From: a virus
IMG/VR virus record: IMGVR_UViG_3300048592_001371
Coordinates: 59,554-123,553 of that record
DNA: 64,000 nucleotides
Strand: one strand, 5' to 3'
Under the pieces are notes generated by a model. The model had not been told where the DNA came from. It saw only the letters and a program-made list of their open reading frames with translations, and did not search any database. Positions within the stretch are counted from its first letter, which is position 1, and each line of letters opens with the position of its first letter. The translations under genes were made by a program, and so were the position numbers. Shown in pieces: positions 11,574 to 62,913 of the stretch.

Positions 11574-12008
11574 ATGTTCGTCAGCACTGCAAAATACATT
11601 TACACTCTCGAGAGCGATTTTTCCTACGCTACCGGGATACCCATCCCGCGTCCCTTCATGTTCGGGACATCTTCGCGTAACTGGTTGTCGATCAGCGAAG
11701 AGGGCGTTATCTCCATCTCGGTTGGGTATTCCTGGGACGGGTGTAGTCCGAAATTTCGTCTACTCTGGTCGAAGTACGTCTTCGGAGCATCGGACGGGGC
11801 TATCAAACCGGAAACAGGCAAGCCTCAATGCTACTACGGATCGCTGGTTCACGACGCGTGTTATCAGTTCATGGATGCGGCCTTCCCGTATAACCGGAAG
11901 CAGGTAGACGGCTTCTTCTACGATCTGATAAAGCGCGACGGCTTCAAGTACGCTACTGAGTATTACAAGATAGTCCGGGCTGTCGGTGGAGTCTGGCACA
12001 AACTATAA
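11574..12008 (+). CDS. DUF1353-like phage protein
   Basis: A 144-residue protein starting ATG 11574 after GGGGACTCC. Conserved-looking elements are SVGYSWDGCSPK, YYGSLVHDACYQF and the later RKQVDGFFYDLIKRDG. The order of a G-x-x-WDG turn, a S-L-x-HD-x-x-Y helix and a D-x-x-F-x-x-x-L helix matches DUF1353, frequent in phage lysis/tail regions. The His-Asp and Asp residues could bind metal. Its role is unproven. It is followed by a putative cysteine-protease-like protein and a holin-like membrane protein. Confidence 0.65.
   Translation: MFVSTAKYIYTLESDFSYATGIPIPRPFMFGTSSRNWLSISEEGVISISVGYSWDGCSPKFRLLWSKYVFGASDGAIKPETGKPQCYYGSLVHDACYQFMDAAFPYNRKQVDGFFYDLIKRDGFKYATEYYKIVRAVGGVWHKL
11597..11604 (-). 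promoter_or_regulatory. Promoter-like box TGTAAATG for the antisense tail-region gene
   Basis: Minus-strand TGTAAATG, 34 nt upstream of ATG 11562, lying inside the start of the + strand DUF1353-like gene. Same sequence and spacing as the box before the DNA polymerase gene. Confidence 0.45.
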
Positions 12009-12017
12009 GGAACAGAA

Positions 12018-12449
12018 ATGGCATCAAAGATCAAGGTACTCGCGGCACCTGTGAATTTCGACAAGTACGTCGCACAGTTCATGTATCGCTTTCCTGGACT
12101 GCAGAAGATGAACAGCTCCTACGGCCGGTGCAAGCTAGTGTCGTACGAGTTGGCGAAATTCCTGCGGGAGCACGGAGTCAAGGCTTTCATCTATCACCTT
12201 GAAGGTATTAAGCCGGGTACGTATCCGAATCCGCACAAGGACTACCAAGAGAAGAAACCTTCAGATTGGTCGCACTACATCGTCAAGGTTGGCAACAAAG
12301 GAATTGATCTGACGGCCAAGCAGTTTGACAAGTCGGCCTCGGTACCACTTGTTGCTCCCATCAGCGAGTTCAAAGCGAAGTGGGAGAAATGCTCACGCGA
12401 CGACTTCATGAACAAATTTCTGGAGGACGCGCTGAGGGCGCGTATCTGA
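12018..12449 (+). CDS. Putative papain/transglutaminase-like protein
   Basis: A 143-residue protein preceded by AAGGAAC. A candidate catalytic triad is visible: C38 in YGRCKLVSYEL at the start of a helix, H86 in DWSHYIVKVG and D97 in IDLTAKQF. The order Cys-helix, His-strand, Asp-strand is that of papain-like and transglutaminase-like folds. The family cannot be named and activity is inferred only from this pattern. It lies between the DUF1353-like gene and a small membrane protein, so a cell-wall or lysis role is conceivable. Confidence 0.55.
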   Translation: MASKIKVLAAPVNFDKYVAQFMYRFPGLQKMNSSYGRCKLVSYELAKFLREHGVKAFIYHLEGIKPGTYPNPHKDYQEKKPSDWSHYIVKVGNKGIDLTAKQFDKSASVPLVAPISEFKAKWEKCSRDDFMNKFLEDALRARI

Positions 12450-12450
12450 C

Positions 12451-12855
12451 ATGGACACTATAGTCATTCTTCTGAAAGGTATAGATACGCTGGCCGTCAT
12501 CCTAGCCCTTCTTGTTTTGTCTTTCGGCATTCTGGCGTGGCGCTCCACCCGCAATAAGGAGCAGCGTTTCGACTTCGAGGAGCTATTCCTTGACGAGGTT
12601 GGACGCACTTCCCTATACAAGCTTGGTCAGTTCATAGCCCTGTGCTTTTCGACGTGGGGTTTTGTCTATCTGACGCTGGCGTACAAATTGTCGGAATGGT
12701 ACTTCACTGCATACATGGTTGCCTGGGCGGGTGCGAACGTAGCTAACAAGTACATAGAAACGAGGAAGTCGGTGACTCCCATTCCTGACATGAAGAAACC
12801 GGAAGAGAAGAAGGCGGTCAAGGTCAGCGGAACCAAAGACGACGAAGACGATTGA
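12451..12855 (+). CDS. Small membrane protein, holin candidate
   Basis: A 134-residue protein with three predicted transmembrane segments at about 10-30, 57-76 and 82-100. A conserved-looking DFEELFLDEVGRTSLYKLGQ loop lies between the first two, and the tail is highly charged (PEEKK ... KDDEDD). Size, topology and charged C-terminus fit a phage holin, and it stands downstream of possible cell-wall-active proteins. The spanins, however, are 9 kb away, so another membrane role is possible. Its 3' end overlaps the converging primase gene by 32 nt. Confidence 0.55.
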   Translation: MDTIVILLKGIDTLAVILALLVLSFGILAWRSTRNKEQRFDFEELFLDEVGRTSLYKLGQFIALCFSTWGFVYLTLAYKLSEWYFTAYMVAWAGANVANKYIETRKSVTPIPDMKKPEEKKAVKVSGTKDDEDD

Positions 12856-13840
12856 CAACGGCTATAGGCAGGTCGACGGGGTCTATCTTCTTGAAGGGAG
12901 TCTTGCCTTTCTTGATACGGGCCTTGTTCATCCGTTCTTCGATCGCCTTCATGTTTATACTCTTCACTTCCAGCAACCCAGCGCAGGATCGTTTGATTTT
13001 GCGCTGGGCCTTCCTCCCGGCCTCGTCCGAGTCCATCATCAAAACAACGCTCTCGATCCCTATCGCAATCAGCAGGTCGCGCTTCTTCTCGTCCCAATTG
13101 TGTGTCCCTAGAATGGCCACGGCAGGCAGTCCACACGCTATGAGCCGTAGCGCGTCACGGGCCCCTTCCACAATGATGATGCGACGATATTTCCTGGCCT
13201 GTTTCCGAACATGATCTAGCGGGAATAGTCCCTTCTCACGGGCCCAGACGCCCGATGAATTGACATAGGCAAGTATGTCCTTGGTTGGCGGACGTTCCAT
13301 CAGGGCTTTGATGCCTCCAACCATACACTTGTTCACAACGATAGGCAGAAAGACCACTTCATCCTGCGTCTTGGAATCGAGTGCCAGTTGGGCACCTATC
13401 TTGGACAACAGTTGTCCAGGTATGGATCGCCAGTCCATGTGCGTCGGCCAGGACACTACAAATTCCAGACCGAGGTCATCTGTAATGGCGTCGAACGACT
13501 GGGCAATATCGTCCGGTTCAAGCAAATTCTTGTCGATGTCCCGACCATGAAACTCGGTGACTTGATCGTTGCGACCGTTCACCTTCATCAGGCCGAACGC
13601 GTCGGCAAGCTCGTTCCACTTCCCGTGTTTCGTACACCCGAAACAGTAAAATGATCCTATAGGGCGCTTGCTCTTGGGGTCGAGATTGATGATGAGCGAC
13701 GGATCGCTGTCTTTATGGAACGGACAGACAATCATTATCCCGGAAGCGTTCCCCTTCTTGGCTCCGCGAATCCGAGTTACTTCCTGTTCAATAATACGGT
13801 GTGACTCTGAGACGTGGCTACCACGACCGAAAGCGTACAA
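12824..13840 (-). CDS. DNA primase (DnaG/T4 gp61-type, CHC2 zinc finger plus Toprim)
   Basis: A 338-residue protein on the minus strand. The best start is TTG 13840, preceded by AGGAG at 6 nt; a longer GTG-initiated frame to 13897 has no ribosome site. The N-terminal CHC2-type zinc site is C39, H42, C66, C69 (CPFH ... CFGC). The Toprim domain follows, with IIIVEGARDAL (acidic Glu), PAVAILGTHNW and the VVLMMDSDEAG metal-binding DSD. This makes it an RNA-primer-synthesising primase for lagging-strand synthesis. A TGTAAAGTA box lies about 26 nt upstream (13866-13874). It is divergent from the MmcB-like gene and isolated in strand from its neighbours. Confidence 0.9.
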   Translation of the reverse strand: MYAFGRGSHVSESHRIIEQEVTRIRGAKKGNASGIMIVCPFHKDSDPSLIINLDPKSKRPIGSFYCFGCTKHGKWNELADAFGLMKVNGRNDQVTEFHGRDIDKNLLEPDDIAQSFDAITDDLGLEFVVSWPTHMDWRSIPGQLLSKIGAQLALDSKTQDEVVFLPIVVNKCMVGGIKALMERPPTKDILAYVNSSGVWAREKGLFPLDHVRKQARKYRRIIIVEGARDALRLIACGLPAVAILGTHNWDEKKRDLLIAIGIESVVLMMDSDEAGRKAQRKIKRSCAGLLEVKSINMKAIEERMNKARIKKGKTPFKKIDPVDLPIAVVNRLRRLWFR

Positions 13841-13865
13841 GGCGTACTCCTGTTTTTTGACAAGA

Positions 13866-13874
13866 TACTTTACA
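13866..13874 (-). promoter_or_regulatory. Promoter-like box TGTAAAGTA upstream of primase
   Basis: The minus strand reads TGTAAAGTA, a variant of the recurring TGTAAATA box, ending 26 nt before the primase TTG start. It also lies at the very start of the divergent + strand gene. The same nine bases recur at 14774-14782 (minus strand) in the non-coding region. Confidence 0.45.
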
Positions 13875-13876
13875 AG

Positions 13877-14533
13877 ATGAAACCCAAGAAAGAACACTAC
13901 GAACGATTGAGGTACTACCTGGCGAATCGTGTGTATTCACCACGGTCCATGTCCAACATCGACATAGATTTGCTGAATTACGGGTGGATACTGCCGTCTA
14001 CCCAACCCGGAATCAAAGGTTTTTTGGCTTCCCCGGTCGGTATCCAGGCATTCAAAGAACTACGCCGGAAGCAATCGACCAAGTTTGATACCCATAACAC
14101 GTTAGCGTCCCGTCTGGCACAGTATCTTCAAGCCCGGAACAGGATCACCTACGAGAACATAGAGCTAAAGGCTGAGTATGAAGGACGTATTAGACCATGC
14201 CGGCCTGACGTCTTTTCCCTGATGTGCACGTACAAGGCTACCAAGTTGCACCCTTTCATCCACGAAGTGAAGGTGTCGCGAGCAGATTTTCTGAACGAAG
14301 TGAAGAACGGGAAGAAACTCTATCTGTACTCGCAGTTAGCCGAACGGGTTTTCTTCGTTACGCCTGCGGACTTGGTAACGAAACAGGAAATACCGGAAGA
14401 CTTGGGGTTGATCTACGAGACGAAGCCAAACACATTCCGACTTGTCAAAAGAGCCGTTCAGAACAAAGTTCCTAGGTATCGTACTGCGATGTGGATGAGA
14501 TTGGTACTGAAGAAAGGAAGTACTGCTAGATAG
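13877..14533 (+). CDS. MmcB-like protein (PD-(D/E)XK nuclease-fold, DNA repair type)
   Basis: A 218-residue protein starting at ATG 13877; no clear ribosome site is seen and a GTG at 13814 is the alternative. The C-terminal half shows EYEGRIRPCRPDVFSLMC, HPFIHEVKVSRADF, then KLYLYSQLAERVFFVTP and IPEDLGLIY. This order (R-x-D, E-x-K, Y, fyf-vp, P-GL) is that of MmcB family proteins, which have a restriction-endonuclease-like fold and DNA-repair links in bacteria. Candidate catalytic residues are the Asp of RPDV and the Glu/Lys of HEVKVS. The N-terminal 90 residues are basic and may contact DNA. Confidence 0.7.
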   Translation: MKPKKEHYERLRYYLANRVYSPRSMSNIDIDLLNYGWILPSTQPGIKGFLASPVGIQAFKELRRKQSTKFDTHNTLASRLAQYLQARNRITYENIELKAEYEGRIRPCRPDVFSLMCTYKATKLHPFIHEVKVSRADFLNEVKNGKKLYLYSQLAERVFFVTPADLVTKQEIPEDLGLIYETKPNTFRLVKRAVQNKVPRYRTAMWMRLVLKKGSTAR

Positions 14534-14707
14534 GGATTCAAAACCAACAGCCTGAATTGTTCATTTGTCCCACAGAGTTTTTTGTTCCTTCAATGTACTT
14601 CTTGTACTTCTCTCTGTGTTAAGCCTTGTCACGTCATTCCATTTCATTCCATGACGGTTTCTACTTCGTAGAATTTTTCCTTCTGTCCATTGTCATGTTC
14701 ATCATCT

Positions 14708-14741
14708 GGAACCTTTTGGTTCCTAGGAACCTTTTCGTTCC
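14708..14741. repeat. Tandem small hairpins GGAACC-TTTT-GGTTCC
   Basis: GGAACC (14708-14713), TTTT, GGTTCC (14718-14723), then after TA a second near-copy: GGAACC (14726-14731), TTTT, CGTTCC (14736-14741). Each unit is an inverted repeat and the two units form a direct repeat with an 18-nt period. Transcribed, they would give two short stem-loops; as DNA they could be protein-binding half-sites. Confidence 0.7.
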
Positions 14742-14773
14742 TTCGGTCCATCGGTTTCTTAAATTCTCTGAAT

Positions 14774-14782
14774 TACTTTACA
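14774..14782 (-). promoter_or_regulatory. Orphan TGTAAAGTA box in the non-coding region
   Basis: Minus-strand TGTAAAGTA, identical over nine bases to the box upstream of primase. No minus-strand gene follows before 13840, so transcription from it would cross the non-coding region and run antisense to the MmcB-like gene. It could drive a non-coding or replication-primer transcript, or be chance. Confidence 0.3.
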
Positions 14783-14813
14783 ATGAAATCACGGGTATCG
14801 ACCACTCCGTTTT

Positions 14814-14833
14814 ACTCTTTACCACTCTTTACC
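14814..14833. repeat. Iteron-like direct repeat ACTCTTTACC x2
   Basis: Two head-to-tail perfect copies of ACTCTTTACC (14814-14823 and 14824-14833). A partial copy, ACTCTTT, follows around 14852, and ACCACTC precedes the pair. Short tandem repeats in an AT-rich gap are typical of initiator-binding sites, but the copy number here is low. Confidence 0.5.
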
Positions 14834-14936
14834 GCTTATACACCCAAATACCCACTCTTTTTGCAATATACCGCTGTACTGCCAATATTTATTTTCCGGT
14901 GACTCCCAATGACGCATAACTCTTTGATGTTCCGAG

Positions 14937-15036
14937 AATTTGTGTGCCGAGCAGTAAAAATTGGTAGGAATTGGTAAAATCCGAGAATGCATCCGTTCGG
15001 TGGCTGACAGACGGGTTTTCGGAAGGCACACAAATT
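14937..15036. repeat. 12-bp perfect inverted repeat enclosing 76 nt
   Basis: AATTTGTGTGCC (14937-14948) and its exact reverse complement GGCACACAAATT (15025-15036). The enclosed segment holds two AATTGGTA copies (14959-14966, 14969-14976), and CCGAGAAT occurs both at its left edge (14932) and inside it (14981). It could form a 100-nt structured RNA or a cruciform. Confidence 0.6.
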
Positions 15037-15167
15037 GCATAAAAAAGTCTTGAGAACTCAATATGTTCCGTGTGCGGAAAAAGAGTTATGACAAAAATAG
15101 GGTGTCAGAAACGACCGTGTCTCGTGTCTGCGTCAAATCCTTTCCTGTCTTCCATCTCCTTCGCGTG

Positions 15168-15201
15168 ACGCGTCTCTGTAAATAGAAAGAACACACGCGT
15201 C
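15168..15201. promoter_or_regulatory. ACGCGTC repeats flanking a TGTAAATAG promoter-like box
   Basis: The + strand box TGTAAATAG (15177-15185) ends 27 nt before the nuclease start codon. It is bracketed by two direct copies of ACGCGTC, at 15168-15174 and 15195-15201, 27 nt apart. A protein binding both copies would cover the box, so this looks like a promoter with an operator. No experimental equivalent is known to me. Confidence 0.45.
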
Positions 15202-15212
15202 CAGAGGCACCT

Positions 15213-16175
15213 ATGTTCGGAAAAGAATCGGTTCAGAAGGAATTCGCCCGCGCCTATCAGAAGGCCATGTCGGAAACCTTGGAGTTGCGCTTGTCTGATC
15301 TCACAGAGGAAGAGCAGAAGGAGTACTGGCACTACGACAAGAGATTCTCACCCTCCTCATTCCCGTTCTGTGGTTTGCGCCGTATCTACATGCGCCTCAT
15401 TGCTGAGGCCAATCCCTTGGTCTACGACAGTTTTTCCGGCGACTATTTCCGGAACGTAGGAATCGTTGCCCATACGGTACTTCAGCGCTGGTTGTCTCGG
15501 CAAGGAAGTTTCATAGGCGATTATGTCTGTCTGGACTGCAAGCACCGACATGAGTTCACTACCTGGCCCGGGAAGTGCAAGAAGTGCGGCTCAATACGAG
15601 TAGAGCACAAGGAATTGGGTGGGAAGTACGGCGGCCACATGGGTTGGAAAAGCGACCACGTATTCCAGACAAAGAAAGGGAAGCTCTACATTGTCGACTA
15701 CAAGACAACTACGTCCTATCAGATTGCAAATCACAAGAAGGACGGGAAGACGTTTCCTTACGTCGGCAATCGCATCCAGGCTGAATCCTACGTACCTTTA
15801 GCCGAGGATCGGTACAAACGAAAATTTGCGGGGTGCATCTTGGCCTACGCAGCACGGGACAATCCGATCTACAACATAGCTATCGTCACGATAGAGATGG
15901 ACGCCGAGAGAAAAGACGAGCTGCGTAAGCGCATGAAGAAGTGGCACAGACAGTTCGAGCTGGCCCTCGTGCCGACTGTCGAGAACGTGAAGATACTGCA
16001 TAAGCAAAAGCTCTGTTGCGACAAACAGTTCTACAAAGAGAACGTCGCCAATGCCTACAACCCGTGTCCGCTTTCCAAGGTTTGCTTCAAGCGCGAGAAG
16101 TTGGTTCTTGAGTTGAAAGCCGCGCTGAAGACGTATCGGAAGAATCAGTCACAGACTGTAAATAAAGCCAAGTAA
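15213..16175 (+). CDS. Cas4/RecB-like PD-(D/E)XK exonuclease with zinc ribbon
   Basis: A 320-residue protein. The nuclease core shows GGHMGWKSDHVFQTKKGKLYIVDYKTTT (quoted in part), giving the motif II Asp of SDH, motif III D-x-K of VDYKTT, and QAESYVPL as the QxxxY motif. A zinc ribbon is inserted near residues 108-128 (C-x2-C ... C-x2-C, CLDC ... CKKC). An N-terminal cysteine (FCGLRR) and a C-terminal cluster (CC ... CPLSKVC) match the split 4Fe-4S cysteines of Cas4/AddB-type nucleases. It would resect or process DNA ends. It heads the island containing QueD, DpdA and QueE, under a clear promoter-like box. Confidence 0.8.
   Translation: MFGKESVQKEFARAYQKAMSETLELRLSDLTEEEQKEYWHYDKRFSPSSFPFCGLRRIYMRLIAEANPLVYDSFSGDYFRNVGIVAHTVLQRWLSRQGSFIGDYVCLDCKHRHEFTTWPGKCKKCGSIRVEHKELGGKYGGHMGWKSDHVFQTKKGKLYIVDYKTTTSYQIANHKKDGKTFPYVGNRIQAESYVPLAEDRYKRKFAGCILAYAARDNPIYNIAIVTIEMDAERKDELRKRMKKWHRQFELALVPTVENVKILHKQKLCCDKQFYKENVANAYNPCPLSKVCFKREKLVLELKAALKTYRKNQSQTVNKAK
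16157..16164 (+). promoter_or_regulatory. Promoter-like box TGTAAATA upstream of queD
   Basis: TGTAAATA inside the last codons of the nuclease gene, ending 26 nt before the QueD start codon. Same sequence and similar spacing as at other DNA-metabolism genes in this window. Confidence 0.5.
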
Positions 16176-16190
16176 CGTCAGGAGACAGAC

Positions 16191-16664
16191 ATGCCCGAAG
16201 GTTTCACAGTATCTTGTTCCATTTCACGCACGGTTGCCGAACGCTATCACGACATTAGCTGCGGACATCGCGTCTACGGACATGAATCAAAATGTGCCCA
16301 CTTGCACGGTCACAACTACCGCGTCCACTTCACGGTTGAGGCACCGGAGTTGGACCACGTTGGACGCGTGATGGACTTCTCGGTCATCAAGTCGCATCTT
16401 TGCATGTGGCTGGAAGACAATTGGGATCACAAATTCCTGATATGGGAAAACGACCCCGATGCGCTCACATTGCAGAGAATCGATCCCGAGGGCGTAGTGA
16501 TCGTTCCGTTCAACCCAACCGCTGAGAACATGGCCAAATATCTGGTTGATGACGTAGGTATTCGTCAATTGACCGCTACGGGTTGTAGGCTCGTCAAGGT
16601 TCGTATCGAGGAAACTGCGAAGTGCAGCGCGTCCTTTATGCGCGGAGAAGAGGTTCGCATATGA
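16191..16664 (+). CDS. queD: 6-carboxy-5,6,7,8-tetrahydropterin synthase (QueD)
   Basis: A 157-residue protein preceded by AGGAGA. It has the PTPS/QueD fold signature: zinc histidines H26, H39 and H41 (the latter two in HLHGHNY), catalytic C35 in KCAHLHGHNY, then GRVMDFSVIK, DNWDHKFL and PTAENMAKYL. QueD converts dihydroneopterin triphosphate to CPH4, the second step towards preQ0. With QueE and DpdA downstream it points to 7-deazaguanine insertion into phage DNA. Neither GTP cyclohydrolase (FolE) nor QueC is in the window; they may lie elsewhere in the genome or come from the host. Confidence 0.92.
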   Translation: MPEGFTVSCSISRTVAERYHDISCGHRVYGHESKCAHLHGHNYRVHFTVEAPELDHVGRVMDFSVIKSHLCMWLEDNWDHKFLIWENDPDALTLQRIDPEGVVIVPFNPTAENMAKYLVDDVGIRQLTATGCRLVKVRIEETAKCSASFMRGEEVRI

Positions 16665-17626
16665 GCATCAAGACAGGCGACTACGTCCTCGCAAGCATTG
16701 ACAACAAGAAGAAGCTTGTGCACGTGACAGGAGTAGGAGACGGGAAGTTCAACGGCGTTCTTGACCACAACCGGGCCTACGCTCCGGAGAACGTGAAGTA
16801 CAAGCTGTCGAGCGTTGTCGCCAACCTCGGTCCCGATCCCGCGCCCGGAGCCGCGTATGGATGCTTGATCGAACCGTATCGTCGTTCCTTCTCGTACAAG
16901 GACTGGGGTGATATCCATACGCATGTCAAGGCCGACAAAGCTATCCAGGAAGCCATTCGCGCCGGACTGGACAAGACATACGCCATTCTGAAAAAGTACA
17001 AACTCACGGGCTTCCTACCTATCGACATTGAGATTCGCCCCAAGAAGGGTGTTCATGCCGGATCATGGACAAGGTCGAAGAAGGACAAGCGCTCCTTGAT
17101 GATCCTTCGGTCGCGGGAGGATTGCATTGCGATGTATCCACAGCTTGTGATGCACGAAGCGGCACACGGGATTTGGTACAACTGTGTCCCACTAGCCTAC
17201 AAGGCGAAGTGGATCAAGCTCTATCACAGCTACTTGCGCTTCTCCAACATCACCGTCAAGGATCTCGAATCCATCAAAGACAGTTTCTTCGATCAACCGC
17301 AGCCCGTGAGAGAATTCCAGGGACAACTTGAGGAAGAGGACGCCTTCTTGTTCAAGAAGGTACTGGATTGGATCAAAGACAATCACCGCATGACGACGAG
17401 GCACCTTGACGAAATCGTGCTGTCCGGGGAAACAGAATTTCTGGAGAAGCTCTGGCCTACTTACGAGATGCTCGTCACAGATTGCGAAGTTGTTATTTCC
17501 GACTACGCTCGCAAAAGCGTTGAGGAATTCTTCGCAGAAGCTGTGTCGTTTCATCTGATGTCCAAGATCAAACTGCCCAAGAAGATAGTCACGGCAGTAG
17601 AAAAGACGCTACAGGCAAGCAAATGA
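16661..17626 (+). CDS. Putative HExxH metalloprotein in the DpdA island
   Basis: A 321-residue protein. ATG 16661 overlaps the QueD stop (ATGA) and is preferred over a longer frame. A zincin-type HEAAH motif lies at residues about 166-170 in QLVMHEAAHGIWYN, followed far downstream by a possible third ligand region with Asp/Glu (VEEFFAEAVSFHLM near 300), the arrangement of gluzincin-like metallopeptidases. An N-terminal SH3-like segment (KTGDYVLASIDNKKKLVHVTGV) is possible. The ATGA couplings to queD before it and dpdA after it tie it to the modification pathway, though its substrate is unknown. Confidence 0.6.
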   Translation: MSIKTGDYVLASIDNKKKLVHVTGVGDGKFNGVLDHNRAYAPENVKYKLSSVVANLGPDPAPGAAYGCLIEPYRRSFSYKDWGDIHTHVKADKAIQEAIRAGLDKTYAILKKYKLTGFLPIDIEIRPKKGVHAGSWTRSKKDKRSLMILRSREDCIAMYPQLVMHEAAHGIWYNCVPLAYKAKWIKLYHSYLRFSNITVKDLESIKDSFFDQPQPVREFQGQLEEEDAFLFKKVLDWIKDNHRMTTRHLDEIVLSGETEFLEKLWPTYEMLVTDCEVVISDYARKSVEEFFAEAVSFHLMSKIKLPKKIVTAVEKTLQASK

Positions 17627-19128
17627 AAAAAGAGAAGAAGGCCAAGAAGGGAAAATACAGCATCATCCCAGCCGCGTACAGCTACCTCAAGTTCGGAGGC
17701 ATTGGGCTGTACGTTCGGTACGCCAGAAGCAAGGTCAAAGAAGTCCATGTGAAGGAGAAGAAGTCAGACTACATCTGGCTGGAAACTCCAGACAGGGAAT
17801 TGTTGATCGTCAGCAACCTGAACAAGGAACTTCCCTTCTATCCGACCGAAGGTACGTTCGACGAATTCGTACCGGTCAGCCTGTTTCACCCGACGGCGAA
17901 CGATTTCGATTTTGACTTCTGCATGGTTAATTTCACAGAACATGCAATCGAGAAAGGCCCTCGTCAAAATCCCGGATTGAGGCTGGACAGGGAAACTTCC
18001 CACATTCAGATCATGTCGGATAGCGGTGGTTTCCAGTTACGGACAGGCGCCGCCGACTATATCAACCCCATCGAGCTTGCCGAGTGGTGTAACGACAACG
18101 TCAACATGACGATGGCGCTCGATATCCCCGTCTTGTACAACGACCGTGACTTGCTGAAACGCTCAGCACGCATTCAGAAGCGCAACAACGAAGTTATGCT
18201 CGAGCACGCACACCCGGAAATGGAACTTATCAACATTGTTCACGGCGCAAGCTGGGCAGAACGGAAAGAGTTCCTAACCTGGGTGGACAACGAGAAGATC
18301 GATCGACTCGCTATGGGTAGTGGTCTGGATCTGGGCGTGCTAGCAAATACGATCGGCCTAATGGATCTGATTCTTACGTCACGGCCATTCAAGCATTACC
18401 ACATTTTGGGTGTGTCGAATGCGCTGAGAATCATCCCGTTGATGCGGGCCGCCCATCATGGAATGGCGCCGCTGATTACGTCTGATTCCACGACGTACAT
18501 CATGCGGGCTACCGCTCGGATGTTCCTCAATTTTGAGACACTGATTTCCAAGCATACGACCACACCGATTGGTACGCAGCTGGCTTCTCGCAATGTGAAC
18601 AACCGAACGGACGTGCATTCATTGCTCCCGTGCTCCTGCGCCATTTGCAGTAGAATCCGCTATATGGACGTGTTCTCCTTGTTTGGAGGTCCCGTACATG
18701 CCTTGCTGTCGACGCATAACATGATCAAGTTCAACAGCTACCTCCAGGCCATGCAAGATTACATGCATTTGCCGTTCAAGGAGCTGAAGGAGATCTTGGT
18801 AGCTCAGCACAAAGGACATTTGGATCTTGACGAGAGCCTGCGTTCCGTGCAGTTCATCGACGAGATCGTAGATACGAACATTGCGAAGGCGGTGACAAAA
18901 TTCAGCCGGTACAAGGCCCGTTCCCGCTACGATCAGTTCGGGAGCAACAAGCACTTTGCCAAGAACAATTCTCTTTGGGGAGGGGAATATACAGGAACAG
19001 AACCGGCAGAGCTTGCTGGACAATCGAAAGTGAAACAGCTGGATCGTTTGAAACAGGTGTTATCCATGTATGAAAATCCGAAGTCGCTGAAACGTCCAAC
19101 AACAATCAAGAAAGGAAGGGGAGGTTGA
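17623..19128 (+). CDS. dpdA: DpdA, phage DNA-guanine transglycosylase (TGT superfamily)
   Basis: A 501-residue protein. The TGT-fold active-site segment SDSGGFQLR lies at about residues 132-140, with the general catalytic Asp. It is followed by MTMALDIPVLY, and the region around residues 264-272 (HYHILGVSN) corresponds to the conserved glycine-rich substrate loop. A zinc site CSCAIC lies near 336-341, with a later STHN histidine near 366, matching the C-x-C-x2-C...H of tRNA-guanine transglycosylases. TGT relatives next to QueD/QueE genes in phages are DpdA, which exchange guanine in DNA for a 7-deazaguanine such as preQ0. It starts in a 4-nt overlap with the HExxH gene. The modification likely protects against restriction. 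Confidence 0.88.
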   Translation: MKKEKKAKKGKYSIIPAAYSYLKFGGIGLYVRYARSKVKEVHVKEKKSDYIWLETPDRELLIVSNLNKELPFYPTEGTFDEFVPVSLFHPTANDFDFDFCMVNFTEHAIEKGPRQNPGLRLDRETSHIQIMSDSGGFQLRTGAADYINPIELAEWCNDNVNMTMALDIPVLYNDRDLLKRSARIQKRNNEVMLEHAHPEMELINIVHGASWAERKEFLTWVDNEKIDRLAMGSGLDLGVLANTIGLMDLILTSRPFKHYHILGVSNALRIIPLMRAAHHGMAPLITSDSTTYIMRATARMFLNFETLISKHTTTPIGTQLASRNVNNRTDVHSLLPCSCAICSRIRYMDVFSLFGGPVHALLSTHNMIKFNSYLQAMQDYMHLPFKELKEILVAQHKGHLDLDESLRSVQFIDEIVDTNIAKAVTKFSRYKARSRYDQFGSNKHFAKNNSLWGGEYTGTEPAELAGQSKVKQLDRLKQVLSMYENPKSLKRPTTIKKGRGG

Positions 19129-19130
19129 CA

Positions 19131-19646
19131 ATGACCATTATTCGCCGAGAGCTTTCGACACGTAGTCCTGAGACAAATCACAGTCTCAGTGCCGTGCTGG
19201 AGCTAGACGTTCCTCAAGGAACGCGACTCCCGTGGAGTTCTTGGTTGTACTCCGTGGAACGAGCCTTGTCCTACATGCTCGAATTTGCGTTGAAGAGCCG
19301 TCAGCTTGATTTGACGAACGACCTGTCCCGCCTCGCGTATCTGGTCAAGGATCAAATGCTTCCGCGCGAGCCAATGTCGTGTCTTTCGATGAACGTGACC
19401 AACTTTACGTTCGTCGCCCGTTACCAGATTGGTAAGGAAAATATCTCATTCGCCGTCACCCTTTTCTGGAACTACAAGGGGAATTTGAAGGCGACTCCAT
19501 TAGGAGATGTAAAAGATGCCTCTCAAGATTGCTCAGATACTCAAGGCCTCCACACCACAGCAGATGGACGGATCCGACTATGTGCAGATACGATCGGTAA
19601 AAAGCGGCGTGTTCAAAAAGACAAACACGCGGATTGTAAAATGTAA
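19131..19646 (+). CDS. Unknown protein downstream of DpdA
   Basis: A 171-residue protein starting at ATG 19131, preceded by GGAAGGGGAGG. Two nucleotides separate it from the DpdA stop. The first 125 residues look like a compact alpha/beta fold. The last ~43 residues are encoded in the 131-nt out-of-frame overlap with the SWIM-type gene and are low in hydrophobicity, so they may be a dispensable tail. No family is recognised. Confidence 0.65.
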   Translation: MTIIRRELSTRSPETNHSLSAVLELDVPQGTRLPWSSWLYSVERALSYMLEFALKSRQLDLTNDLSRLAYLVKDQMLPREPMSCLSMNVTNFTFVARYQIGKENISFAVTLFWNYKGNLKATPLGDVKDASQDCSDTQGLHTTADGRIRLCADTIGKKRRVQKDKHADCKM

Positions 19647-19962
19647 GACGCTGTCAATAGCGACACCGGACGGAACTCCGAAGAAGAAACGCAAGGTCTA
19701 CACTTCCGTGGTCTACGGCGTTACGCCCCCTGACAAGAAAACGGGGAAGTACTTCAAATTGTCTGACAGCCAGGTCAAGGTTTCGTGCAATTGCGACGCC
19801 TTCGTTTTTCAGGGTGGTGAGTGGGCGCTCTGGAAGCACGGAGCCGCGGACATTGTCTACGGCAATGGACGTCCACCAGACGTTCGCAATCCTCGTTACC
19901 GGCCTTGGGCATGCAAACACTTAATCAAAGTCATGAAAGAGATTCTTCGGAGGCGTGTCTGA
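19516..19962 (+). CDS. SWIM-type zinc-binding protein
   Basis: A 148-residue protein preceded by TTAGGAGATG. The C-terminal half has C91-x-C93 (SCNCDAFVF) and C133-x-H135 (WACKHLIKVM), the CxC...CxH ligand pattern of SWIM zinc fingers, separated by a 39-residue insert containing WALWKHGAADIVY and a Pro-rich stretch. SWIM domains bind DNA or proteins. A gene of this type in a DpdA operon could target the transglycosylase to DNA, which is inference. It overlaps the previous gene by 131 nt and the next by 1 nt. Confidence 0.7.
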   Translation: MPLKIAQILKASTPQQMDGSDYVQIRSVKSGVFKKTNTRIVKCKTLSIATPDGTPKKKRKVYTSVVYGVTPPDKKTGKYFKLSDSQVKVSCNCDAFVFQGGEWALWKHGAADIVYGNGRPPDVRNPRYRPWACKHLIKVMKEILRRRV

Positions 19963-20480
19963 TGCTGCCTTATGACAAGATCGCGTCTGAGACGACTATC
20001 AAGCTTGCCATCCATCGCATCGCCGGCCGACTCAACCATCGCTTCTGTGACAGACGAGAAATACCGGTGCTGATGCCCGTCATGCTGGGCAGCTTCATGT
20101 TCTTCGCTCGTTTGCTCCCGTATCTCAAGTTTGCCTATGACGTGGATTATGTCCACGCCACCCGATATGCGGACAACAAACCCGGCGAGCTGACATGGAT
20201 CAAGGAACCTAACTGTCCCTATCCCGGTCGTGACATCGTTGTTCTGGATGACATATTGGACGAGGGGATAACCCTGTCCGCTATCAAGACAACGCTGTTG
20301 GACAAGTACGAGGTTGCCTCGGTAATGTGCGTCGTCCTTTTCGACAAGATGATCCAATACCCTAAGACAATCAAGCCCGACCTGTTCGGTCTAACTGTTC
20401 CAAATCGCTACGTCTTCGGATTCGGCCTCGATCACCAAGGCCATGAAAGACACCACACCAGCCTGTATGCCTTGAGATAG
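19962..20480 (+). CDS. Purine-type phosphoribosyltransferase
   Basis: A 172-residue protein starting at ATG 19962 (overlapping TGA). A longer upstream frame would overlap the SWIM gene and is rejected. The PRPP-binding signature VVLDDILDEGITL lies at residues 93-105, preceded by strand-loop segments PVMLGSFMFFARLL and DYVHATRY, as in hypoxanthine-guanine PRTases. The enzyme would join a purine-like base to PRPP. In this operon it may salvage guanine displaced by DpdA or act on a deazaguanine base. Both are inference. Confidence 0.85.
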   Translation: MLPYDKIASETTIKLAIHRIAGRLNHRFCDRREIPVLMPVMLGSFMFFARLLPYLKFAYDVDYVHATRYADNKPGELTWIKEPNCPYPGRDIVVLDDILDEGITLSAIKTTLLDKYEVASVMCVVLFDKMIQYPKTIKPDLFGLTVPNRYVFGFGLDHQGHERHHTSLYALR

Positions 20481-20488
20481 GAGAACAA

Positions 20489-21277
20489 ATGCAGCACACT
20501 GTTCAGTTTGTTGATAACAACATTGCCACGCGTGACTACTCACATATCAAAAAGAACCACCTCCTCGTCACGAGCGTGTTCTACACCGTACAAGGCGAAG
20601 GACCGCATGGGGGCATCCCGGCCGTCTTCATTCGACTTGCCGGCTGCAACCGGGGAATCAAGCGGGACTGCTGGTTCTGCGATACCAATTTTTTGTTCGC
20701 CGAGGGTACTCAACGCTCCTACACGGATCTGTTGGAAGAGATCGGCAAGCGGCAGGTTCGGCCCAGCCTGGACAAACCCCTCATAGTCATCACAGGGGGC
20801 GAACCGCTTCTGCAAGAAACCAATCTGGCTCCCTTCGTACATGAGCTTTGCGTCAATGGGTACCAAGTTCAAGTTGAAACGAACGGTGACCGGCTGCGCT
20901 TGAATTCGTTGCCGCGTGCCCTGATCGTAATGAGTCCGAAAGCCTCGATGCGGGCTAAGCGCTATACCAAACCGCACAAAGAGGCCCTAGAGAGGGCGGA
21001 TTACCTCAAGTTCCTGCTCGAAGCCAAAGAGGGCCCCTATCATGATGTAGCCGACTATGCGACTGACTTTGCTGACAGGAAAGGTTCCTATCGCGTCTTC
21101 CTCAGCCCGATTTCCGAATACGCTCGGGACATAGTACCGGGCGAAACCGCCAGCATGTGGACAGGTCTATACGACCGCGACATAGCGCGCATCAATCATA
21201 GCTATGCGGCTCGTTACGCTATGAAGTATGGCTACAGACTCAGCATGCAACAGCATCTGTATTGCACGGTAGAATGA
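20489..21277 (+). CDS. queE: 7-carboxy-7-deazaguanine synthase (QueE, radical SAM)
   Basis: A 262-residue protein preceded by TAGGAG. The QueE start motif FYTVQGEGPHGGIPAVFIRLAGC is visible in residues 31-53. The 4Fe-4S cysteines are C53, C61 and C64, a CX7CX2C spacing instead of the CX3CX2C of canonical radical SAM enzymes; QueE proteins are known to vary here. VITGGEPLLQ follows for SAM binding, and VETNGDR for the substrate. QueE converts CPH4 to CDG, the precursor of preQ0. The C-terminal ~70 residues are longer than I expect for a minimal QueE. Confidence 0.92.
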   Translation: MQHTVQFVDNNIATRDYSHIKKNHLLVTSVFYTVQGEGPHGGIPAVFIRLAGCNRGIKRDCWFCDTNFLFAEGTQRSYTDLLEEIGKRQVRPSLDKPLIVITGGEPLLQETNLAPFVHELCVNGYQVQVETNGDRLRLNSLPRALIVMSPKASMRAKRYTKPHKEALERADYLKFLLEAKEGPYHDVADYATDFADRKGSYRVFLSPISEYARDIVPGETASMWTGLYDRDIARINHSYAARYAMKYGYRLSMQQHLYCTVE

Positions 21278-21280
21278 TAA

Positions 21281-22330
21281 ATGAAGGGTAGCCACGTCCT
21301 CAACGTATTGAAATCAGTCACAGAAAGAATAGATGTCAATCACACCAGTGGACAGCTATTCGAGGTCCTGGACACCCTTCTCTACCGGGCGATCGACCCG
21401 ATTATCGAGAACTCGAATTACGTCGATCGCATGCTGAGTATCGTACTGGCCTGGTACACTCAGAATCAGCGTCGCAAGATATCACCCCTCCCCAAAGAAC
21501 GCTTCAACACCTACGTCATCGCCTTCCTGACGACCAAAGACGTAACGCTGCGGAAGAAAATCTACCGTCGCCTTGGTCTAGAGCGGAACATTACCTTCTT
21601 CATCGTCAGCCGTTGGTTGCAACTCCTGCGTCCGTGGCAAGATCTTCATATCCGACATACGCGAGGCGAGCCTGTTTTGCAGGAAATGGCCTCGATAGAG
21701 AGAAGCGTTCTGGTCTTCAACAACCATAATCTTTTCGCTATCATCCAAGAAGCAAAATGTTGGTACGAGAAATCGAGCGATTTCAAGCAGCGTCTCTTGG
21801 AGAAGTACATGCGCTTCATCATGCTCGAAGCGCTTCATCATTACAAAGCCCAACAGCTTCACAATCCCCACCTTCGCTTAGAGCTAGACGAGGTAGCACA
21901 GAACTTTGTCCTGGCTACCTACAAGGCCATCGACAAGTTCGACGCCAACCGAGGTACTCTCACCACGTACATCCAGAACTGGCTGAAGAACGCGAAGGTG
22001 TCAAACCACTTCCGGCATGAGTACGGAACGGCGTACAACATCCCACACAGCCGAAAAATGAAGATCGCTTCCAAAAGCGATACCACCACGAACAATCTGT
22101 ACGTTGAACTAGACAAAGAGGAGGTACTCGAAGTCGCCGACGAGCTTTCGGTAGAAGCCGACGTCGTGCGTCGCAATGAGATAGACTTCATCCGCATGCT
22201 GGCCAAAGAAGCAGACCCCGAAGGAATAGGTCGAATGTTTTTGGGGATAGGCGAATACTTCCCTACTCCCAACTTTGTAAATAAACACGAAGCACACAGC
22301 ACCACAGCAACAACCGCATCCACCTCTTGA
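21281..22330 (+). CDS. Sigma-70 region 2-like transcription factor
   Basis: A 349-residue protein starting 3 nt after QueE. Residues about 195-245 read LDEVAQNFVLATYKAIDKF and onward DANRGTLTTYIQNWLKNA, closely resembling sigma region 2.2-2.4 (LIQEG...GLMKAVDKFD...G..FSTYA..WIR.A). Flanking helices could be region 1.2/3 equivalents, and the N-terminal 190 residues are helical without a family match. It is probably a phage-encoded sigma factor (functional analogue of T4 gp55) that redirects host RNA polymerase. Its C-terminus lacks an obvious -35-binding helix-turn-helix, which would suit promoters defined by a single -10-like box. Confidence 0.65.
   Translation: MKGSHVLNVLKSVTERIDVNHTSGQLFEVLDTLLYRAIDPIIENSNYVDRMLSIVLAWYTQNQRRKISPLPKERFNTYVIAFLTTKDVTLRKKIYRRLGLERNITFFIVSRWLQLLRPWQDLHIRHTRGEPVLQEMASIERSVLVFNNHNLFAIIQEAKCWYEKSSDFKQRLLEKYMRFIMLEALHHYKAQQLHNPHLRLELDEVAQNFVLATYKAIDKFDANRGTLTTYIQNWLKNAKVSNHFRHEYGTAYNIPHSRKMKIASKSDTTTNNLYVELDKEEVLEVADELSVEADVVRRNEIDFIRMLAKEADPEGIGRMFLGIGEYFPTPNFVNKHEAHSTTATTASTS
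22276..22283 (+). promoter_or_regulatory. Promoter-like box TGTAAATA upstream of the SSB gene
   Basis: TGTAAATA followed by AACAC, inside the 3' end of the sigma-like gene, ending 60 nt before the SSB start. It is farther upstream than at most other sites, leaving room for an untranslated leader. Confidence 0.45.
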
Positions 22331-22343
22331 TAGGAGATAATAA

Positions 22344-23693: not shown

Positions 23694-23709
23694 CAGGTGT
23701 GGTGCGTTA

Positions 23710-23743
23710 GCGGGAGCCTCTTAGACGGGGTTCCCGCCTTTTT
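23710..23743 (+). terminator. Rho-independent terminator after SSB
   Basis: GCGGGA (23710-23715) pairs with TCCCGC (23732-23737), with additional GCC/GGG pairing inside, followed by CTTTTT. It sits between the SSB stop and the RecA/UvsX start, so the abundant SSB message could be insulated from the next gene. Confidence 0.8.
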
Positions 23744-23757
23744 GCAGAGGTATTCAC

Positions 23758-25155: not shown

Positions 25156-25157
25156 GA

Positions 25158-26258: not shown

Positions 26259-26315
26259 ATCAATAAATAGCCCGAAGCGGGTAGCAGACCATTTTTCAAC
26301 ATTAGGAGTCCTACT

Positions 26316-26618: not shown

Positions 26619-26626
26619 CAACTCCG

Positions 26627-26680
26627 ACAGGGTATCGCGGTCACTAGAAATCACCTAGCCGCGATACCCTGTTTGTTTTT
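26627..26680 (+). terminator. Strong rho-independent terminator after histone-like gene
   Basis: A perfect 14-bp stem, ACAGGGTATCGCGG (26627-26640) and CCGCGATACCCTGT (26659-26672), with an 18-nt loop and tail TTGTTTTT. It ends on the base before the gp47 start codon, leaving no space for a ribosome-binding site between tail and ATG. Confidence 0.92.
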
Positions 26681-28377: not shown

Positions 28378-28379
28378 AG

Positions 28380-28388
28380 TGTAAATAG
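28380..28388 (+). promoter_or_regulatory. Promoter-like box TGTAAATAG upstream of clamp loader
   Basis: TGTAAATAG ends 13 nt before the clamp-loader ATG. If it acts as a -10 element, the transcript would start only a few bases before the start codon. Confidence 0.5.
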
Positions 28389-28401
28389 ACTGGACACGTT
28401 G

Positions 28402-30370: not shown

Positions 30371-30371
30371 G

Positions 30372-59027: not shown

Positions 59028-59035
59028 TGTAAATG
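59028..59035 (+). promoter_or_regulatory. Promoter-like box TGTAAATG upstream of DNA polymerase
   Basis: TGTAAATG ends 34 nt before the DNA polymerase ATG and lies just after a terminator hairpin, exactly where a new promoter is expected. Confidence 0.5.
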
Positions 59036-59069: not shown

Positions 59070-62060
59070 ATGACAAAAAGCCTATTTGGCAGTAACTGCA
59101 AGTCGTACAACTATAAGAACGATGTCCCTGAGTTCATTGCGAACGCCGACAAGCGTTGCCTCCCGTTCAACGTCAAAATTCGTGTGCCTGATACTTGGAA
59201 GAAATCCAAGTGTCGGGTTCTTTGCGTTATCGAGCACGTAGATAGCGCAGATATTGAAAAGAAGCGGCTATGCTCCGCCACCTATGGCACGGTACTGGAG
59301 AACGTCTTCGGACTAGCTGAGGACTACGTTAGGCACCTAGACGTTCCCAAGTACGAAATCGCCGTTGCCAATTTCAACTTCTTCCGCACGTATCACATCA
59401 AGGACGTCAAACTGCGTAATCAAGCAGATCAGGCGGCCGCTACTCGCATTCGCAAACTTGTCAAAACCCTCCAGCCGCACAAGGTAATCATATTCGGTGA
59501 CAACGCAGCGGAACAGTTGCTGCCCAACGTCGAAAACATCCGTCTGCTACGTGGGCACAAACACAAGATAGACGGCGTCGAATACTACTCCTCCATTGAC
59601 CCCAGCGTCGGCTATTCCAAGTCTCGTGGTGACGATGACGAGGACGGCAACGTATCGGATCTCAAGGAAGAGACGACGTTGAAGTACTGTAACCTCCTAG
59701 GTTACGTCTCCCGCACAGTTGCTGCAGCCCTGATCGGAAAAATACCGTATCCAATCGACGTAGTGCCGAATCCCGTGCTAGTCGACAGCATAAAGAAATT
59801 CGACAAGCTCTACAAGCGATTGATGTCAGAGAAGGTGATCGCCTGTGACATTGAGACGGAAGACTTGTCGCGTGTGACAAACCGTCTGCTCACCATCCAG
59901 TTCGCCTTTGATAGCAAGACCGGTTACGTCCTACCTATTCTCCACAAGGACAGTCCCTTTAGCAAGGAGGAGCTGTCTTACATCCGCAAGAGGCTGCGTC
60001 GGTTCTTCAACAAGCAGCGCGACTACCTCCTCAAGCAGTACGATGACTACATCATAGGTCAGAACTTCAAGTTCGACATGTCAGTATTGCGTCACTGGCT
60101 CAAAATCAACCAAGTGCTTTGGCCCATCTGGGACTTGCAGTCTGGCGAATACGCTCTAGATGAGAACATTGTCACGTTGAAGGACAAGAGCAAATTCGGA
60201 ACCTCGCAGTACAATCTGTTGCAAATCTCATTGAATTACGGCTGCTTCGCCTATCTGCAGGCCAAGTTTGGCAAGAGCGAACGGCACACAATCTCGCAAG
60301 TCGATCTGAGCAGGGATGTTCTCGAATACTGCGCTCTCGACGTGCAGGTGCCCTTTGCCATTCATGAGCAACAGCTTGCTCGGGCGAAGCACCAGAACTT
60401 TGCTAAGACAAGCTATCAAGAGTCGTACAAGCGTTTTGTCGTGACGCAGATGAGTAACATGGTTCACATCACGTCGCAGATGGAGCAAAGAGGGGCCTGT
60501 ATCGACTTGCCCTATTTGATGAAGATGCGGTCCTCTAAAGGACCGTTAGAGCAGTTGCTTGCGGAGAAGCTGGCGAAATTCAAGAAAAGCAAAGCGGCTC
60601 TCCGTGCCAATAAGTTGGTTCTGAAGAAGACAGGCGCGCCGTCCGGTAGCATCTACGAAACGATTGGTGCCAAGACAGATAACTGGGTACTCAACCTCAA
60701 CAAGCCAATCCACAAGCAAATCCTCTTCATCGACGTACTTGGTCTCAAAGCTAGTAGAACAACAGCTTCCGGGGCTCCGCAGATCGACAAGTATTTCATG
60801 GCGGCCTACAAGGACGCAGTCCCGGAAGCAGCTCTGTACGACGAATACTCGCAATTGCTGAAACTGTCGGGAACATATATTGGGGCGTTTGCACGCAGAT
60901 ACAAGGAAGAGAAGGATTTTCGTAGTGACGGGCATTTGCGACCGTCCTTCGGCTTCGTAGAAACGGCTACCGGTCGCGGTAACTCTTACGATCCAAATCT
61001 GCAGAACATCCCGACACGTGGCAAGTTTGCCAAGATGATCAAGCGATCCTTTGTCTCGCCTCACGGATCTTTGCGTCTGAAGATGGACTACTCGGCCCAC
61101 GAAGTTCGTGTCTGGGCAATCATAGCGGGCGACGAATTGTTAGCAGCGTTGTTCCAACGTGGTCGAGAACTGCGGCAAAAATTCCGGAGTACCGAGGATC
61201 CGAAGTACAAAGCCCTGATGGATACAATTGGGGATATTCATAAGCTGAATTGCCAGTTCTTCTTCGGTGTAGAGCCCGCGGAAGTGACCAAGGAACAACG
61301 TGATTCGATCAAGAACGTCGTGTTCGGATCCATCTATGGACGCAGCGCTGGTTCCATTGGTAAGGTCATCAACAAGGACAAGGAATACGTTGAGAAGCTC
61401 CTCGATCGATTCTTCGACCGTTTCAAGAAGGCGTCGGCTTGGTTGAAATGGGCCAAGCGCCACTCTGTGCAGCACAACTATGTCTACAGCCCGATCGGTC
61501 GTGTGCGTCATATGTACGCTCACCTGTACGGAATGCAGGGACTGGTTGCGGCCACCGAACGTCGTGGATCGAACGCTCCCATCCAGGGTTTCGCTGCCGA
61601 TATGGGGCACACCGCCGCCTACATCTACGGCATTCATTTGGAGCAAGTCTTCCAGCGTTTTGACCGCATGGACGGATTGCTGGTTCCCGGAGGCGTGTCG
61701 ATTATGGTTCACGACAGCCTTTTCGGAGACATGAACTACCGCAATTACTTGGTAGCTCTCCAGATCATGCAGTGGAGCGCTACGTTGGGTTGTGAGCAGT
61801 ATTACGAGACACACTTCGGAGTGAAGTATCCAGTACATCTGGAAGTTGAATTCGAGCTAGGAGCCGACGACAGCCGACTTATCAAGTGGGACTGGTCGGA
61901 GACCCAGCTCAAACAGGCCATAGAGCAAAGCCTGGTGTATCAAACAGACATATATCCCAAGTTGGATGTGAAGAAGACACTGAAGGAAATCTACGCGGTG
62001 CGAAATGACACGAAAGTCATGCGCTACTTAGACAAACACTATCCGATCCTAGCGGATTGA
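59070..62060 (+). CDS. DNA polymerase, family A, with 3'-5' exonuclease and N-terminal extension
   Basis: A 996-residue protein. The exonuclease motif CDIETEDLSRV lies near residues 259-269, with further DEDD elements (GQNFKFDMSV; LEYCALDVQVPF). Polymerase motifs: A MDYSAHEVRVWA near 672-683 (family A consensus DYSQIELR, here SAHEVR), B RDSIKNVVFGSIYGRSAG near 743-760, C MVHDSLFGDM near 880-889. It is the replicative polymerase. The first ~240 residues precede the exonuclease and include LENVFGLAEDYVRHL, IAVANFNFFRTYHI and LQPHKVIIFGDNAAEQLL, which look uracil-DNA-glycosylase-like. Only ACAAGG-like sequence lies upstream, so initiation is weakly marked. Confidence 0.92.
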   Translation: MTKSLFGSNCKSYNYKNDVPEFIANADKRCLPFNVKIRVPDTWKKSKCRVLCVIEHVDSADIEKKRLCSATYGTVLENVFGLAEDYVRHLDVPKYEIAVANFNFFRTYHIKDVKLRNQADQAAATRIRKLVKTLQPHKVIIFGDNAAEQLLPNVENIRLLRGHKHKIDGVEYYSSIDPSVGYSKSRGDDDEDGNVSDLKEETTLKYCNLLGYVSRTVAAALIGKIPYPIDVVPNPVLVDSIKKFDKLYKRLMSEKVIACDIETEDLSRVTNRLLTIQFAFDSKTGYVLPILHKDSPFSKEELSYIRKRLRRFFNKQRDYLLKQYDDYIIGQNFKFDMSVLRHWLKINQVLWPIWDLQSGEYALDENIVTLKDKSKFGTSQYNLLQISLNYGCFAYLQAKFGKSERHTISQVDLSRDVLEYCALDVQVPFAIHEQQLARAKHQNFAKTSYQESYKRFVVTQMSNMVHITSQMEQRGACIDLPYLMKMRSSKGPLEQLLAEKLAKFKKSKAALRANKLVLKKTGAPSGSIYETIGAKTDNWVLNLNKPIHKQILFIDVLGLKASRTTASGAPQIDKYFMAAYKDAVPEAALYDEYSQLLKLSGTYIGAFARRYKEEKDFRSDGHLRPSFGFVETATGRGNSYDPNLQNIPTRGKFAKMIKRSFVSPHGSLRLKMDYSAHEVRVWAIIAGDELLAALFQRGRELRQKFRSTEDPKYKALMDTIGDIHKLNCQFFFGVEPAEVTKEQRDSIKNVVFGSIYGRSAGSIGKVINKDKEYVEKLLDRFFDRFKKASAWLKWAKRHSVQHNYVYSPIGRVRHMYAHLYGMQGLVAATERRGSNAPIQGFAADMGHTAAYIYGIHLEQVFQRFDRMDGLLVPGGVSIMVHDSLFGDMNYRNYLVALQIMQWSATLGCEQYYETHFGVKYPVHLEVEFELGADDSRLIKWDWSETQLKQAIEQSLVYQTDIYPKLDVKKTLKEIYAVRNDTKVMRYLDKHYPILAD

Positions 62061-62077
62061 CGTGACAAGGATACAAC

Positions 62078-62893
62078 ATGGATAATCAGGCGATCGAAAC
62101 GGCCCCTTGGTTTGGCCTCTTGTTTTTGTACGGGACGTCCAACAATTATCAACCACTCTATCAGTACCTCTGTCAATACTGCGATGTGCTCGCAGCGGGT
62201 AACACCGAGGACAGATCGTTTTCGACATACGAGGTACCTGATGACCACGAGGTACTGGTCAAGCAATTGGAGAACACATTCCGCGTCCGTCCCTACTCAT
62301 ACTTGCTGGGTGGAATGCGCCCACATGAAATGAACATCGTTACCCGCAATGCGACTGTTCTAACATGGATGCAAGGAAACATCCTGCACGAGGACGGCGT
62401 TGCCTACCCGGCAAAGCTCCTAGCCAAGTTGAACCAAACGTCTGATGAAGACAGCGCGTCTAGCAAGTATGAACGCAAGAACTACACTGAACTGGTTCGG
62501 GAGCGTGTCGTGTCGCGTATGCCCGGCAAGTGGGGTTTGTCTTTAGCCTACATTGGAATCAAGACAGCCTTCATTCTCAGTTGCCGCAACATCCAGATTC
62601 ACCTGTGGCTGATCTACTTTGATGGTGCCTACTTCCTCCTGTGGAGCACGTATAAGAATGCGGCCCACGAACTGGAAATGGCTTTCGGCAAGGTCGGTCT
62701 GGTGAACCGGGAGATTTTCTTCCAACAAGAGATCGAATTGGAGCTGTCCTCGATCCTGACGATACACCCGATCTACTTCGTGAACAAGGTCAACAAACGG
62801 ATGCATACCTACGTTGATCGTAACTCGCGCAAGATGTTGATCTGCAATTTCATCCGAACGTACTTGACCCGTCAGAACAAAAGCATTGATTGA
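62078..62893 (+). CDS. Unknown protein between polymerase and clamp
   Basis: A 271-residue protein preceded by ACAAGGATAC. The middle has two hydrophobic strands or helices (SLAYIGIKTAFILSC, IHLWLIYFDGAYFLLW) that could be buried core or weakly membrane-associated. The ends are charged. No known motif. Its place between polymerase and sliding clamp suggests a replisome role, without proof. Confidence 0.65.
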   Translation: MDNQAIETAPWFGLLFLYGTSNNYQPLYQYLCQYCDVLAAGNTEDRSFSTYEVPDDHEVLVKQLENTFRVRPYSYLLGGMRPHEMNIVTRNATVLTWMQGNILHEDGVAYPAKLLAKLNQTSDEDSASSKYERKNYTELVRERVVSRMPGKWGLSLAYIGIKTAFILSCRNIQIHLWLIYFDGAYFLLWSTYKNAAHELEMAFGKVGLVNREIFFQQEIELELSSILTIHPIYFVNKVNKRMHTYVDRNSRKMLICNFIRTYLTRQNKSID

Positions 62894-62904
62894 TTACGGA
62901 CTGT

Positions 62905-62913
62905 TGTAAATAC
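62905..62913 (+). promoter_or_regulatory. Promoter-like box TGTAAATAC upstream of sliding clamp
   Basis: TGTAAATAC ends 22 nt before the clamp ATG, in the 42-nt gap after the preceding stop. Confidence 0.5.

Follow-up and report, generated by a model that had tools for sequence, protein, structure and literature searches.

We propose that the 8-bp box TGTAAATA alone provides the recognition element for a class of phage promoters and is read on the host RNA polymerase by a phage sigma factor with matches to sigma-70 domain 2 only, and we put the probability of this reading at about 0.8. The DNA analysed (the window, 64,000 nucleotides) comprises bases 59554-123553 of a virus record of 123,553 bases (G000), the other 59.5 kb of which were also examined. 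Gene calls come from a small hexamer model built in-house, so that start positions are approximate. An original prediction had listed ten places of the box, and the expected letters are present at all ten. They are given below in the window's coordinates together with the sigma and SSB genes, the distances being those from the box end to the start codon.

15177-15184, + strand: TGTAAATA box of the Cas4-like nuclease gene (15213-16175), 28 nt; the Vibrio phage GR11A orthologue is boxed too
16157-16164, + strand: TGTAAATA box of QueD (16191-16664), 26 nt
21281-22330, + strand: sigma factor of 349 aa, likely the reader of the box (phrog_17569, E 3e-54; Pfam Sigma70_r2)
22276-22283, + strand: TGTAAATA box of SSB, within the 3' end of the sigma gene, 60 nt
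22344-23693, + strand: SSB (phrog_15004), conserved downstream neighbour of the sigma gene
28380-28387, + strand: TGTAAATA box of the clamp loader, 14 nt; also boxed in GR11A, PhiXhv-12, G008 and G012
34985-34992, + strand: GGTAAATA, weak GG variant, before the SbcC/gp46-like gene (35018-37336), 25 nt
59028-59035, + strand: TGTAAATG box of DNA polymerase (59070-62060), 34 nt; GR11A orthologue boxed
62905-62912, + strand: TGTAAATA box of the sliding clamp (62936-64000, reaching the window end), 23 nt; boxed in GR11A and PhiXhv-12
41634-41641, - strand: TGTAAATA box of the RuvC-like resolvase (41053-41628), 5 nt to the ATG; GR11A orthologue boxed
13866-13874, - strand: TGTAAAGTA box of primase (12824 to about 13840), about 26 nt if the start is the TTG behind AGGAG
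11597-11604, - strand: TGTAAATG box of the antisense ORF 11164-11562, 34 nt

Based on our model, the sigma factor, with its domain 2 and a short helical tail, would bind the host core RNA polymerase, and the polymerase bearing it would open the DNA at the box, which would lie at -10, with no -35 element present. Transcription would probably start about 7 nt after the box, the -10 placement being inferred because a purine peak lies 7 nt downstream of it. The class would in this way turn on the replication, recombination and DNA-modification module, with a timing that is probably early-middle rather than late. It would follow that the RuvC mRNA is leaderless, since the ATG lies 5 nt past the box, and that the clamp loader mRNA begins about 8 nt ahead of its start codon and lacks a Shine-Dalgarno sequence.

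The signal of the box is one of position rather than of overall TGTAAAT frequency in the window. The full box TGTAAATA has 6 copies in the window against 0.70 expected. TGTAAAT occurs 9 times across the whole window against 4.3 expected, which is a modest enrichment reached by 4 of 100 shuffles, so that, of the excess over background that the original prediction proposed to count, the part upstream of genes is strong and the window-wide part is slight. Upstream regions of the window have TGTAAAT in 8 of 70 cases, with 0.26 expected and a largest value of 2 in 300 simulations. In the full record, 9 of the 12 copies lie within 100 nt upstream of a same-strand start (0.61 expected, p 1.8e-8), and TGTAAAT is the top upstream 7-mer beside the Shine-Dalgarno words. 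It had been held that matches equally frequent inside genes or in the wrong orientation would speak against a promoter. Within coding sequence of the window the count is at background (3 versus 2.97 in synonymous-codon shuffles), with no excess inside genes, and the orientation is almost strictly sense, the rate per kb being 0.77 in sense upstream of genes, 0.028 inside coding sequence and 0.009 in antisense. In an EM motif search of the phage's own genome alone the box did not rank first, because the sites are too few and words like Shine-Dalgarno sequences win, and the claim is thus carried by the k-mer and comparative tests.

The distances of 5 nt (RuvC) to 60 nt (SSB) agree with the range claimed originally. 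The strong TGTAAATA sites of that list stand, but weak variants were mixed in with them, such as GGTAAATA at 34985, which in GR11A has 19 copies with 0 upstream of a start. The TGTAAAGTA variant also precedes four GR11A genes, and the antisense ORF 11164-11562, searched in a longer form, has no Pfam match. A few copies are not promoter-like, namely the TGTAAATT within the SbcD-like gene (27397) and the TGTAAAGTA at 14782 on the minus strand, which has no gene directly downstream on that strand; one TGTAAATA copy of the full record (G000:51683) lies inside a coding sequence. It is noted that the 14782 copy falls in a long stretch without a clear gene (14534-15212), between a DNA-repair-like gene and the Cas4-like gene, which is possibly a replication origin or regulatory region.

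The box is conserved before orthologous genes in relatives whose proteins are about 33% identical. With GR11A orthologues taken as reciprocal best hits and one lenient rule applied to all genes, 7 of 7 boxed genes have a boxed orthologue, as compared with 4 of 24 unboxed genes (p 1.3e-4), and with strict predicted starts the p value is 0.0039. The seven are primase, the Cas4-like nuclease, SSB, clamp loader, RuvC, DNA polymerase and the clamp. In nine other phages, where homology alone was used to assign genes to modules, the box stands before 33 of the 172 orthologues of the replication module and before none of the 124 structural orthologues (p 4e-9); the phages being mutually related, such p values somewhat overstate the certainty. 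The absence of the box from structural genes, as claimed originally, thus holds in general, with the exception of a TGTAAATT in the tail-fibre region, 51 nt ahead of G000:43060-43413. Within the replication module only 8-10 of about 59 genes are boxed, and therefore other promoters or read-through must serve the remaining genes. As an observation apart, QueD, QueE and an orthologue of the GR11A TGT-domain protein are clustered before the sigma gene (16191-21277), representing a probable 7-deazaguanine DNA modification cluster.

The same box is found in relatives that share the sigma factor at about 25-35% identity, including the Vibrio phages GR11A and GR7B, Xanthomonas PhiXhv-12, Erwinia Y3 and metagenomic phages. 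In the first 100 kb of GR11A, 15 of 23 TGTAAAT copies lie upstream of genes (0.97 expected, p 2e-13). Two lineages have variants of the box, CGTAAATA in Motura (15 of 37 upstream, p 2e-8) and AGTAAATA in BcepSauron (16 of 21, p 6e-12), and in PaBG, which carries the sigma factor, CTGTAAA is enriched upstream (11 of 21, p 3e-8). Counts of GTAAATA over whole records against the reversed-pattern control are 59:14 for GR11A, 22:4 for PhiXhv-12, 42:7 for Motura, 29:3 for BcepSauron and 48:19 for Y3, with no excess over this control in PaBG. The first motif found de novo by EM is tTGTAAATaA in GR11A, TCCTGTAAat in PhiXhv-12, TCTGTAaAtA in Y3 and AGTaaATaAa in BcepSauron. BcepSauron (NC_049851) has in addition a separate, very strong upstream word, TATTGTTGACGG, with TATTGTTG upstream in 20 of 23 copies, and TATTGTTGACGG probably marks early promoters of the host sigma-70 type.

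An independent sample of 24 IMG/VR loci was fetched by the SSB alignment alone, the alignment of eight sigma factors being too diverse to serve as a query. The sigma gene is found in 23 of these 24 loci, and 11 of 19 distinct loci have the box immediately ahead of SSB, or 10 of 17 without PaBG and BcepSauron. With the DNA polymerase as query, IMG/VR gave no relative. In a phage collection, the sigma factor has matches in 91 records and the neighbouring SSB in 91. Four PaBG-like loci (L023, L024, L025 and L029) have TGTTAATA or TGTCAATA just before SSB, near the usual place of TGTAAATA, which may be one more form of the box, particular to a lineage.

The sigma gene lies in the window and was missed by the original prediction. 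Its identity as sigma-70 domain 2 is agreed on by fold, profile and PHROG. Regions 2.1-2.4 are present both in the family profile, which aligns to RpoD as far as the end of region 2.4 but not beyond it (E 2e-5), and in the predicted fold, with DEVAQNFVLATYKAIDKFDANRGTLTTYIQNWLKNAKV as the counterpart of regions 2.2-2.4. Residues 17-253 of the AlphaFold2 model (pLDDT 75) match domain 2 (regions 1.2-2.4, about residues 93-448 of the E. coli protein). The best structural match is a Caulobacter domain-2 structure (Z 13.9, 3.1 Å, 217 residues), a Z that helical proteins can reach by chance, and the Foldseek E-values are weak (best 1.8e-3). Past residue about 270 there is no match to domains 3 and 4, and residues 242-292 are of low confidence or predicted to be disordered. 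No gp55 chain is among the listed matches of the fold search, and a second sigma factor like PaBG gp112 has no match in the window or among the phage's own proteins. We considered whether a region-3.0-like HEYG segment of the sigma factor might read the first base of the box. The sigma factors of Motura and BcepSauron, the boxes of which begin with C or A, are without it, but so are those of G008 and G012, which keep TGTAAA, and this candidate was rejected. No determinant of the change of first base (T, C or A) was found in the sigma factor. This counts against the model, as do the differing word in PaBG, the leaders expected for RuvC and the clamp loader, and the many genes of the module that have no box.

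We aligned 62 boxes pooled over the phages, and information is present only in and beside the box. Because the boxes were selected for the core, its invariance is by construction. From -50 to -6 no column exceeds 0.2 bits, a weak base preference occurs just before the box, and a purine stands 7 nt after it in 77% of cases. The same pipeline recovers TATAAATA in T4 as a positive control (11 of 18, p 5e-10).

It might be argued that host sigma-70 promoters simply have the box as a variant of their -10 or extended -10 element and that no phage factor is needed, for the box is A/T-rich and lies at a plausible distance before genes, and in the TGTAAAGTA variant there is a TAnnnT hexamer, TAAAGT. 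We consider this unlikely. Host sigma-70 promoters consist of TTGACA and TATAAT separated by a spacer of 16-18, and this layout is not that of the 62 aligned boxes, among which no -35 element is conserved; TGTAAATA itself lacks the TAnnnT pattern. Moreover, the box tracks the phage clade over Vibrio, Xanthomonas, Erwinia, Achromobacter and Burkholderia hosts, the pipeline found no such word in lambda and Felix O1, and sigma-70-like sites in 11000-30999 of the window are in no excess (11 versus 14.2 in shuffles).

Somewhat less probable still is that the box serves a phage activator or repressor as its operator, inside promoters of another kind. A short, conserved upstream element that in some divergent regions, such as that between primase and Cas4 in GR11A, is present on both strands would be expected of an operator. 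By contrast, the box is non-palindromic and nearly always in sense, has no second element around it and is followed by a purine at a fixed spacing. In GR11A, besides, boxes often stand directly behind terminators: a terminator-like hairpin precedes 9 of 33 boxes by no more than 60 nt, as compared with 6 of 193 unboxed genes (p 3e-5), implying that transcription restarts there. The same hairpin scan found no terminator before the boxes of the present phage. The terminators bear also on the idea that the box acts in RNA, as a translation enhancer or a site for processing of the operon transcript, because they would halt the very transcript meant to contain it. The location of the box about 5-80 nt before start codons, sometimes inside the end of the preceding gene, fits an action in RNA, but the distance varies, from 5 to 78 nt, and the RuvC box leaves no space for a ribosome site, making this idea highly improbable. 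The original claim of a phage-specific promoter class for DNA-metabolism genes is thus supported, the box being conserved before orthologues, confined to the replication module in nine other phages and paired with a phage sigma factor, with transcription starts placed by inference.

T4 late promoters work with gp55, gp33 and the sliding clamp gp45 and control virion structural genes. They have one 8-bp A/T-rich box, TATAAATA, no -35 element and a factor with homology to sigma region 2 (PMC2988020, PMC7892883), all of which resemble the present system, and by analogy with gp55 and TATAAATA a domain-2-only sigma factor and a promoter having only a -10-type box would fit each other. The comparison with the T4 late box made in the original prediction is therefore apt for the mechanism but not for the regulon, which here is DNA metabolism rather than virion genes. 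Unlike TATAAATA, which has 0 copies in the window and is not enriched upstream in the relatives, the box here has G instead of A as its second base, and its first base differs between lineages. Unlike gp55, the sigma factor here is 349 aa long, and its N-terminal helices resemble region 1.2 and the non-conserved region of sigma-70. It belongs to the same family as PaBG gp118 and its Mieseafarmvirus relatives (tblastn to PaBG 29%, E 7e-36; phrog_17569). The late promoters of phiKZ and AR9 are likewise short phage-specific elements in giant phages, but they are read by phage multisubunit RNA polymerases (PMC7598289) rather than by a sigma factor on the host polymerase. For jumbo phages without their own RNA polymerase, reviews state that the sigma factors likely guide the host polymerase to phage promoters (PMC7598289, PMC13282480), and the passages searched in PMC7412058, PMC7824862, PMC13282480 and PMC13340338 give no promoter sequence or regulon for such factors. 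A search for TGTAAATA or GTAAATA in open PMC full text had only unrelated titles among the matches listed, and subscription papers could hold a report.

Our analysis thus supplies a candidate box, reader and regulon for the sigma promoters of jumbo phages, with genomes of cultured phages carrying both box and sigma factor. If the model is true, a gp55-like mechanism would serve replication instead of virion genes, the box variants would form a natural series in which base reading by sigma domain 2 could be studied, and box and sigma factor could be used in expression work as a compact, orthogonal promoter pair.

A second box, TAATTT, may be of a late class for virion genes, which we take as a lead and not as a result. 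It stands before five genes of the phage, namely the leading gene of the capsid operon and those for a baseplate wedge, a structural protein of the virion, a tail fibre and an Rz-like spanin; no gene of the replication half has it. The sites are as follows.

G000, upstream of 3192, 19294, 26453 and 40831: TAATTT
Window 3004-3009, + strand: TAATTT, candidate late-class box of the Rz-like spanin gene (3053-3448), suggestive only

In PaBG it stands before both tail-sheath genes, with 15 copies upstream in sense, 5 in sense within coding sequence and 0 in antisense. Pooled over the nine other phages the class test is not significant (p 0.15); p is 0.01 if the present phage is included and Y3, G008 and the A/T-rich Vibrio phages are dropped, a selection made after seeing the data. 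We suggest tentatively, at somewhat less than even odds, that the system is clade-wide among jumbo phages without their own RNA polymerase, a domain-2-only sigma factor and a one-element box, with T, C or A as first base according to lineage, running the replication module, and the second box TAATTT running the virion genes.

Finally, we note that a protein encoded at 33914-34435 of the window strongly matches Pfam Tad6 (E 5e-35), which inhibits type I Thoeris defence.
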